Shown in pieces: positions 5,309-8,300 of a stretch of DNA of 64,000 nt. The notes beneath the pieces were generated by a model. The model did no database searches. It saw only the letters and a program-made list of their open reading frames with translations, and was not told where the DNA came from. The stretch is taken from contig NC_090952.1 of assembly GCF_040807025.1 (NCBI RefSeq), positions 4,914,001 to 4,978,000 on the forward strand. Direction: 5' to 3'. A program made the translations under genes and the position numbers. The first letter of the stretch is position 1; every line of letters starts with the position of its first letter. Source of the stretch: Struthio camelus. Its lineage: Eukaryota > Chordata > Aves > Struthioniformes > Struthionidae.

Positions 5309-5350
5309 TTACTGAGCACGGGAGAAGTTTTCAATTGCTTCCTTCATTTC
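5309..5350 (-). CDS. ATAD2: ATAD2-like terminal exon (copy 1)
   Basis: 42 bp encoding [13 protein letters not shown] and TAA, matching the extreme ATAD2 C-terminus (MEQEVENFSCSR). A short 3' UTR follows with AATAAA 35 bp after the stop. Confidence 0.93.
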   Translation of the reverse strand, partial: EMKEAIENFSRAQ

Positions 5351-8300
5351 CTAAAACAAAAAAAAAGAAGATAAAAAATAATAATAGTCACCAACCAAAC
5401 AAAGACAAGCTAGCTATAAGCTGGAAGACAAACGCAAACCCTCGGTAGCTGAGTTCTTTAGAGAAAATAAAAGGATCTGTAGATGCATACAATTGCTGCT
5501 TGGCTCTACTTAGCAAATTACCTCGATTAACTGAGTTTTGTCATTGTCCTGCCGGTGGTGGTAAATACACTGGCTGAGCAGCAGATGGAGTTTCTCGAGG
5601 TGGCGTATGCTGCAGTCCTTGGTTGCCTCGCCCACAGCATTCAGCAGCTGCTGAAGAAAAAAGCCAGACAGTAGACATTTACAGTAGCACGAGATCTTCT
5701 GAGCAGGCTCTCGATGTGTTCACACACACACAAGAAGGCAGTCCAACACAACTCTCATCCTACTTTCTCGTATCGCTAAATAAAGGAGGAGTGAAACGTC
5801 AGGGAACAGACTTAAGCATGGCACCGGATTTCCATGGAGGAAATGAGCTCCTTGGACCTACTTGAGAGAAAGAGCAAGGCTCCAGTTGTGTTAGCTGCAT
5901 GTTGGCCCTGCCTGCAGCTCCGCTGGCATATTGGAGAGCTCCAGGCTCGGCAGCAGAGCGGGAAGGAAAGGTAGATGAGCGAGCTGCAACCTACCCTGAG
6001 CCAGATGTGAGTTTCCTTCTCAGCAGCGGGTGACCATCTCCTCCTCTTCTCTGCCTGGCTCTCCGAGGGCGATGTGGGCCGCCTTCGCTTTCGTCTGCAT
6101 ACAGCTGCACAGAGATAGCAGAAGCAGCAAGCCAAAGCGTTACCTAAGCAGTTCTGTCTTCCAAATCGAGCATCGTCCTCTTACTTGGTGCACAAGGCAA
6201 AACAAGACAAAAAGGAAAACAGGAGGGAACTTGCCACCAGGCAGGGGCGTACTGGCATCTGCAGGCACCGCTGGCAATGTGTGCTCCTCTTGCTCCTCCA
6301 GCTGCCGCTCTTCCTCCTCCGCCAGCAGTCGAGGCTCAGGTGGGGATGCCACAGGCAGGACTTCCAGTGCGTGGCAACCTTCAGTCAACCAGAACAGGTT
6401 AGCCAAGCGATGGCAGTCCGACACAAGCAGAGTACAAAGTCATGCCAGGAAATCAAATACCCAAACACATGCCAAAGAGCTGCTAAGCTACCGATGGCAA
6501 AGCTCTATGTGTAGGACAGTTCCCACCTGCTCTCCTTTGTGGTGCAGCAGGTGGAGCAGCTTGGTGGAGAAGCAAGTCCTCAAAAAGCTTTCTCCCTTCC
6601 TCCTTGCTGGGTGGCTGGACATTGAAGACTTCTCCATAAAGCTCCGAAAACAAAGCTTGCACCTGAGGCGGGAGGAGAAAAGACAGTGCAGCCCTAAGGC
6701 CCCCCGCAGATTCGTGCTCTACTCCAAGCAGGTGAAAACTGTTTTCAGGGAAGCCGAGGAATGCTTTGAATAAGGGGGAGACTAGAACAAGTTTGCTTCT
6801 TGGCCTTCACGGCAAGATTGTAGTGGGTCAGCCCGGCACTGGAGGGCGTCTTCTGTAAGGAAGACCTCCAGGATGAAAGCTCAGGGCAGCGAGCCGAGGT
6901 TCCAGTGAGGCCAGGGAGGGCACGCACCAGCTCCTAGGTGGCCTGCAGTGGATTGCCTTGCCTTGCCGCCCTTCACTTGGAAGCCTTGTGGCAACTCCCG
7001 AGGGAGGAGATGCCAGCAGGGTGCCCTAGAAATAGCAATGTCCAAGTGCTTAGGAGGGCACAGGATTGAGGTACTTCAGGGAGTGATAAATTATCATGAG
7101 ACTGAGAAAAGCGGGCAAAGCGGTGGCAGAAATACCTCTTCCGGGAGATCTGCATGGCAAACATCCGAAGTAGCGAGCAACAGCACTGGAGCGTAAGGTG
7201 GAATGCGCTCTAGCAGTGTGGTGAGCGTAGCTCTCAAGGTGACTCCAGCAGCCTCCCACCAGGCATGGATGTGTGGCATATAAATGATGCTGGGTGCTGT
7301 CCTCTGGGCTTCTCGGACCAACTAGTAAGAAGGAAGTTTGGGGAAGACCACTGAAGCGAGTAGCAGCATACCTGTGGTATGCTGAGAGAAAAGAAACCCT
7401 TTTCTTTGGCCCCAAACCGGGGTTGCCGTTCAGTCTGCTAAAGAAGGAGGCTGGCGAAAGGGCATGACCAGCAGTCAGGCAGATGCAGAGGCGCCTCCTG
7501 GGAGCTAGAGAGCCTGAAGAGGCAAGGGAAACAGCTCTGCGGAGCCCGCTGCCAGCAGCAGCAGCTCTTGCCAGGAAGAGAGGTTTCTCAAGAGCATCTT
7601 GGAGCTCCCTGAGCTGCTAGCAACAGCCTTACTGTGCGGCACTTGCAATGGAAAAGATGCTCCTGCACAACATGCTGCTTCTCTGCTGTTCAGTGTACAA
7701 GAAAAGGGTTCCTTCAGCACAACATAAACACCACAGAAAGCACAGGAAAGCCAGGCCGCCTCCGCTAAGCCCGTGAAGTCTATTAATGCTGTGAGACTGC
7801 AGAGAGAAGCGGTACCTGTGTGCATCTTTCTTCAGGTGGCGTGCTGCTAGCAAAGAGAGCCGGCAGGTCCAGCACGTGAACGGCAAACCTCTCCAGCGCG
7901 TGTAAGAGTGCAGGCGCCAAGTGAGAAGTTTGCCCGTAGCCGGGCTCTCCAGCTATTAGGAACCTGGGCCGGTGACATGCTGGCTGGCCACAAGCATTGC
8001 TAGGAGAAGAGCTGCAAGACAAGCAGTTTGGAAAGAAAGCGATGAGTCAAGACACAGCTGGTGAAGGTGTCTGTCTTTGTCCAGCACACACCAGTCTGCC
8101 TGTCTTCCCCGCTGAAGCTCTCACGCTCAGGATGTCCTGAGTTGAGGAGCCTTGAGTTCTCCGCACTGGTCAAGCTTAGGTGAAAGTGGTCAGCTGGTAA
8201 CGGAGGTGGTGGTCACGAAGGGGCAGAACAAGCCTTCTGGGAAAGCAAATGACACGGGCTTTGAGAGCCCTTAGCTGTATGTGAGGAAGGGCAAAAGTGG

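Follow-up and report, generated by a model that had tools for sequence, protein, structure and literature searches.

A tandemly amplified ATAD2 paralogue of the ostrich lost its bromodomain by an in-frame deletion and appears to have kept its AAA+ motor

Background

The 13-kb units that stand in tandem at this locus of the Struthio camelus genome raise the question of whether an ATAD2-type AAA+ ATPase has lost its bromodomain there and, if so, whether the remainder is a gene or a relic. In human ATAD2, as described in the structural passages of PMC10539301, AAA1 forms the upper spiral of the hexamer, AAA2 and the C-terminal domains form the lower one, and the bromodomains were not resolved; H3-H4 crosslinks fall on AAA1, the bromodomain and the C-terminal linker. 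The same paper reports that truncated human ATAD2 without the Walker B mutation hardly hydrolysed ATP, and states in its abstract that ATAD2 drug design has been aimed at the bromodomain. In Yta7 of S. cerevisiae, the relevant passages of PMC9898759 place the bromodomain as an insert in the AAA2 helical subdomain and have the AAA1 pore loops grip the H3 tail. The listed sequence of PDB 8h3h, an 831-residue human chain whose construct is given as 403-1390 in those passages of PMC10539301, seems to omit the bromodomain, since it has only 13 residues between EEQEEYA and LVGDKRSD.

Results

Array units and gene structure

The genome comprises 1.45 Gb in 262 contigs, and the window is the whole 64,000-nucleotide stretch analysed, C11:4,914,001-4,978,000. 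Its positions 1-39,487 hold three 13-kb units that are 99.9% identical to one another and are followed, from 39486, by a 20-bp satellite. The gene copies in the window are:

5309..15015, minus strand: gene copy 1, exons N3 to the stop, 20 exons, 838 codons plus stop, open frame, AG and GT at all 19 introns
18304..28005, minus strand: gene copy 2, exons as in copy 1 except for one base in exon A0
31293..39317, minus strand: gene copy 3, ending at 39317 and lacking the five exons further upstream, where the 20-bp satellite begins (39486)
53210..55808, minus strand: isolated 3' fragment of a unit, 2.6 kb, with the last two exons

Copies 1 and 2 each hold all 20 exons. Placed with ATAD2 as a guide and joined, these give 838 residues with a single stop at the end and GT-AG borders at every one of the 19 introns. 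The exons of copy 1, together with a candidate first exon, are:

15131..15229, minus strand: weak candidate for the exon that opens the coding sequence (MLLELRFGGSMDLRQTEGVLAEEVKTSLPSSFS); its donor at 15130 is in frame, and the C5 unit has this exon too
15015-14955, 14839-14729, 14597-14499 and 14372-14262, minus strand: four related N-terminal exons, the last three being phase 1-1 cassettes
14056-13978 and 13332-13224, minus strand: exons before AAA1, linker domain, VDP kept
12991-12876, 12207-12033 (Walker A), 11735-11647 (Walker B), 11289-11130 (sensor, arginine fingers), 10050-9960 and 9736-9422, minus strand: AAA1 exons
8800-8728 (linker), 7999-7816, 7321-7136 and 6662-6527, minus strand: AAA2 exons
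6238..6378, minus strand: fused exon, 47 residues, in frame, junction between 6276 and 6275 by comparison with ATAD2 on C2
5995..6104, minus strand: basic linker exon, 37 residues, homologous to AVSKRKRRKNKWSSGSITKRRK... of ATAD2, where the matching exon has 139 residues
5522..5650, minus strand: C-terminal helical domain exon, ending ...LIE
5309..5350, minus strand: last exon, 13 residues plus stop

A chance open frame was rejected: read in its other two frames, the splice (exon N1 left out) has 14 and 28 stops. With its introns present and its frame open, the gene differs from a processed pseudogene. A retrocopy was sought as proof of splicing, and none that spans an exon border was present among the matches listed (150 of 419 candidates scored).

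The exon structure is common to ATAD2, and three ATAD2 coding stretches besides the bromodomain are missing or shortened. In the unit we could recover neither some 100 residues of the basic exon nor the 43-residue MTRARR exon of ATAD2, and the serine-rich ATAD2 exon did not turn up there as a separate exon. At the N-terminus, the unit has four related short exons, partly acidic, whereas the 24 kb of ATAD2 that we read showed one; the gain or loss of phase 1-1 cassettes leaves the frame unbroken, and the frame is kept both through this multiplication and through the absence of the serine-rich exon. A strict donor scan found no start exon, and a looser scan found the one weak candidate, which is common to C11 and C5. 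Two protein-like frames (HMSTFGSMQEKLFTPEAVSQAMKTAEEDKGNLL...) with no Pfam match also run on the plus strand at ~2200-2640 of the window, in the part of the unit that is antisense to the candidate first exon.

Beyond the window, arrays occupy C11 4.84-6.00 Mb, C5 2.9-4.5 Mb and the contigs C45, C65, C151 and C224, and they fall into two families, C11 and C5, whose introns differ by ~10%. A genome search with the fused exon gave 62 matches: 60 array copies (19 on C11, 16 on C5, 5 on C45, 1 on C65, 8 on C151 and 11 on C224), one on C8 and one in ATAD2. With an AAA1 exon as query, the genome yielded 81 matches; 61 of these are array copies, of which 60 are without a stop and one has a stop. Both searches set lower bounds on the number of array copies. 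Elsewhere, a decayed AAA2 fragment (C11:1.419 Mb) and a 3' fragment with the last two exons (C5:5.957 Mb) belong to the array-gene family. AAA-gene matches on C40 and C41 are paired with identical scores, a pattern that little-differentiated sex chromosomes or a duplicated region would produce.

Loss of the bromodomain

The initial annotation described an ATAD2 paralogue minus its bromodomain between 5309 and 6662. Both ends are correct, 6662 opening the AAA2 exon VQALFSEL... and 5309 closing the stop codon, and the bromodomain is indeed absent from the unit. The PF00439 profile, run on the whole genome, gave 48 matches, none of them in the arrays on C11, C5, C45, C65, C151 and C224. The genome's own ATAD2 bromodomain as query gave 11 matches genome-wide, again none in the arrays: three lie in ATAD2 (C2), three in ATAD2B (C3:15.88 Mb) and five in other bromodomain genes on C1, C3, C14, C16 and C24. 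ATAD2-type bromodomain exons were placed solely in ATAD2 and ATAD2B by the genome searches. We also rejected a degenerate bromodomain persisting in the unit, given the lack of a profile match in the arrays and the outcome of tblastn with three bromodomain pieces against window 3001-16500. Here the best E values (0.76, 1.6 and 0.52) stayed within the range of ten shuffles of that stretch (0.15-0.76, 0.023-6.0 and 0.02-2.0).

How the domain was lost can be read from ATAD2 on the minus strand of C2, where the bromodomain spans three coding exons. One ATAD2 exon runs from LEEQEEDTL directly into the bromodomain start and on to ...PVDLEE, so that it contains both the residues at which the initial annotation ended the likeness and the start of the domain; two further exons complete the bromodomain, and the next exon ends ...KMPVVPVDSSTPLSNG. 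In the array unit, the left half of the fused exon is the start of the first ATAD2 bromodomain exon and the right half is the end of the post-bromodomain exon, the 14 residues after LEEQEEHT being homologous to the very end of the latter (ATAD2: MPVVPVDSSTPLSNG). On ATAD2 the deleted stretch measures 2,146 bp, from C2:160,158,648 to 160,156,503, and takes the whole bromodomain with it. A single in-frame deletion in the genome, each end of which falls within an exon, accounts for the loss of the bromodomain. The exon layout first proposed needs one correction: LEEQEEHT does precede the lost bromodomain, but the idea that whole exons had merely been squeezed out of a gap of ~160 bp is rejected, because the exon itself is fused at 6276/6275. 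The fused exon and the basic linker exon (6104-5995) are 133 bp apart. The donor used by the fused exon is a GT, with a GC, apparently the one used by ATAD2, 3 bases on; both keep the frame.

All 60 array copies found carry the fusion, and so does a diverged single copy on C8; every one of these matches spans the junction, and ATAD2 itself matches the fused exon up to the junction only. Therefore, the deletion is older than the amplification. The C8 relative (~802-819 kb, loci L040 and L045) is one older copy with the same fusion, longer introns and a junction match at 70% identity, and it is decaying, with a frameshift, a 6-residue loss, a P to Q change in Walker A and an R to W change in the arginine-finger region. 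One bromodomain piece matched within C8 (E 0.019), but antisense to the gene there and with a stop in the aligned stretch, and this was taken as chance.

Relationship to ATAD2

Exon order, AAA1 and AAA2, and the fused exon match ATAD2 on C2, which bears out the proposed parentage. Over 170 residues of AAA1, array proteins are 85-87% identical to ATAD2 and 82-85% to ATAD2B, and the exon before the junction is 81% identical to ATAD2 versus 53% to ATAD2B. An unrooted codon tree pairs C11 with C5 at 100/100 and separates C11, C5 and C8 from ATAD2 plus ATAD2B at 96.2/99, a split that receives 82.9/76 in a protein tree with human ATAD2; both trees are small and unrooted, being built from 170 AAA1 residues (136 for C8). 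ATAD2 is the nearer gene, as its branch is short (0.013) and that of ATAD2B long (0.46). Given these branches and the identities of the pre-junction exon, an origin from ATAD2B is not favoured.

A bromodomain AAA+ ATPase carries its bromodomain between AAA2 and the C-terminal domain, and the array protein has none there. Judged from its sequence, the array gene is an ATAD2 paralogue by descent and falls outside the bromodomain AAA+ definition by architecture.

Motor residues and selection

The claim of an intact AAA1 is upheld by alignment. AAA1 matches PF00004 at E 1.3e-47, and compared with human ATAD2 the predicted protein keeps Walker A, the Walker B Glu (E532), the pore-loop Trp (W505), R540, the arginine fingers R586/R589 and the linker-domain D415 (human residue numbers from the passages of PMC10539301 that give them, mapped onto the array protein by our own alignment). 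A degenerate AAA2 and then the C-terminal helical domain are present, aligned to human 8h3h up to residue 583 and again over 770-829.

Between C11 and C5 (822 codons), dN is 0.050, dS 0.128 and dN/dS 0.39, with 91.5 changes at 1877 nonsynonymous sites against 69.5 at 589 synonymous sites (Fisher p 2.7e-8). By part, dN/dS is 0.32 in AAA1, 0.28 in AAA2, 0.53 in the N-terminal part and 0.57 in the C-terminal part. Comparison of C11 with ATAD2 gives 0.08 for AAA1 and 0.19 for the whole, values that are rough because dS is near 1. When one C11 unit is aligned with one C5 unit, the introns show 53 indels in 8,042 columns, 40 of them not multiples of 3, and the exons show two in-frame indels (3 and 6 bases) plus one base at the stop codon, a count that leaves out the basic exon, which was misaligned in the whole-unit alignment and was read directly instead. 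In the C5 unit so read (L042, ~1394-1714), the donor after the basic exon is lost, and the frame stays open across what was the intron and continues into the next exon; this 136-residue open frame through the basic exon is present in 27 of the 28 C5-type array matches listed. The C5 copy read has also lost the original stop by one base, which would add ~13 residues.

Variation among loci was read in 30 of the 61 AAA1 copies, over ~3.2 kb of each. The 11 C5 loci have substitutions at 0 of 515 exon sites versus 31 of 2769 intron sites (Poisson p 0.003). Among the 19 C11 loci, which comprise 10 distinct sequences, 1 of 515 exon sites and 5 of 2649 intron sites are variable, and one locus has an R to Q change in AAA1. 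One of the 11 C5 loci (L031, C5:4323308-4326469) has lost 4 bases in an AAA1 exon, which puts that exon out of frame; the deletion was confirmed as real, so at least one array copy is broken.

Natural selection thus seems to have preserved the motor part, and this purifying selection (dN/dS 0.39 between families, 0.08 for AAA1 against ATAD2) makes a working protein likely. On these comparisons, the array unit looks more like a gene than a relic.

Satellite setting

The copies on C11 form two arrays, 9 on the minus and 10 on the plus strand, which point apart with ~0.92 Mb between them. All five samples taken between these arrays are 20-bp satellite (tandem repeats were run on one, and the rest were judged by eye from the first 160 bases), and this satellite stretch is possibly a centromere. 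C11:4.84-6.00 Mb can be described as opposed arrays around the 20-bp satellite, which occupies 39486-44509 and 55808-64000 of the window; 93-bp and 186-bp tandem repeats lie between satellite blocks at 51916-52699. On C5, one of four samples is satellite (50-bp unit) and the other three do not look repetitive in their first 160 bases, so the link between arrays and satellite is not general.

Discussion

Our preferred reading, at a probability of about 0.57, is that the arrays encode a selected ATAD2-derived AAA+ motor without a bromodomain, the domain having been deleted in frame before amplification, and that this motor would act as a hexamer that threads histones. The predicted protein would keep both flanks of the bromodomain insert, joined by a short linker that contains two clusters of basic residues. 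It should still form a two-tier AAA1/AAA2 hexamer and may thread histone tails through the AAA1 pore, since the three parts that make up the published human core (AAA1, AAA2 and the C-terminal domain) are all present here, and the bromodomain sits above that core as an appendage. Loss of the reader would entail loss of acetyl-lysine targeting. The motor could then serve as an acetylation-independent histone chaperone, or its subunits could mix into full-length ATAD2 hexamers and dilute their acetyl-lysine binding. We favour a high-dosage role in handling histones independently of acetylation. Its probable site is the germ line, although the tissue is a guess. A simple CENP-A loader is disfavoured, because Yta7 minus its bromodomain and C-terminus lost the Cse4 pull-down in the experiment described in the relevant part of PMC13050212; however, that construct also lacks the C-terminal part, which the array protein keeps. 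Weighing against the preferred reading are also the higher dN/dS of the N- and C-terminal parts, the ATAD2 exons without a counterpart in the unit, the few broken or altered copies, the lost stop of the C5 copy read, the lack of an exon-spanning retrocopy among the matches listed, the decay of the C8 relative and the feeble ATP hydrolysis of truncated human ATAD2.

Several other explanations have to be set against a selected motor. The arrays could be a macrosatellite, in which a gene relic inside a 13-kb unit has been homogenised by tandem duplication and gene conversion and the open frame is a legacy of the founder. The near identity of copies within C11 (10 distinct sequences at 19 loci, 5 variable sites in 2649 of intron) fits such a history, as do the adjoining 20-bp satellite on C11, the weakness of the candidate start exon, the frameshifted C5 copy and the decay of the C8 relative. 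Homogenisation within arrays, however, does not account for the dN/dS of 0.39 between C11 and C5, nor for exon indels between them that nearly all preserve the frame, and even the loss of a splice donor in C5 still yields an in-frame readthrough. We therefore regard a macrosatellite as rather unlikely, though the strongest of the competing explanations. That the protein joins ATAD2 hexamers and lowers their binding to acetylated histones, as a dominant-negative subunit, was the proposal of the initial annotation. The hexamer-building domains are kept, the reader is removed and the dosage is high, all of which would suit this role, but a pure poison subunit would not need the catalytic AAA1 that selection appears to have kept, and we consider it improbable. 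Finally, tandem arrays are hard to assemble, and bromodomain exons might have been collapsed or lost in assembly. We give almost no credence to such an artefact: the junction is intra-exonic and in frame, all 60 array copies found across six contigs have it, it recurs on C8 at 70% identity, and the bromodomain matches elsewhere all lie in ATAD2, ATAD2B and other bromodomain genes.

Comparison with known systems places the array protein beside ATAD2 (C2:160.15-160.18 Mb; human 8h3h), with which it shares exon order, AAA1 and AAA2 (AAA1 85% identical over 170 residues), the linker-domain motif and the C-terminal helical exons. ATAD2 differs in its bromodomain on three coding exons, its longer post-bromodomain linker and the single locus found for it. 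ATAD2B (C3:15.87 Mb) is a family member with an AAA1 82% identical over 170 residues, but it has a bromodomain and its pre-junction exon is only 53% identical. The S. pombe protein Abo1 (in the passages of PMC10539301 concerned with it) and Yta7 (in those of PMC9898759) likewise have two AAA+ rings with the H3 tail in the AAA1 pore, and they differ in the bromodomain tier atop the rings. Among birds, the duck gene LOC113841329 is named ATAD2-like, but the portion of PMC11476845 that mentions it describes an ATAD2 bromodomain homologue; on that description it represents the opposite part of the ATAD2 gene from the array unit. Among the papers listed by our literature search, none described a bromodomain-less ATAD2 paralogue or an amplified ATAD2.

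Most speculatively, and as a long shot, the array gene might be an ATAD2 motor particular to this lineage, raised in dosage by amplification and released from control by acetylated histones, in arrays that mirror each other on C11 with ~0.9 Mb of mostly satellite DNA between them. It might serve CENP-A or histone turnover at satellite chromatin, or compete with ATAD2 in the germ line in an arms race like those of other ampliconic chromatin genes. The role of the motor itself is hard to study while motor and bromodomain come together. If the reading of a selected, naturally reader-less ATAD2 motor is true, the ostrich arrays would amount to an evolutionary deletion experiment on the motor alone, and the array gene would add a chromatin motor to the genes that are tandemly amplified beside satellite DNA.
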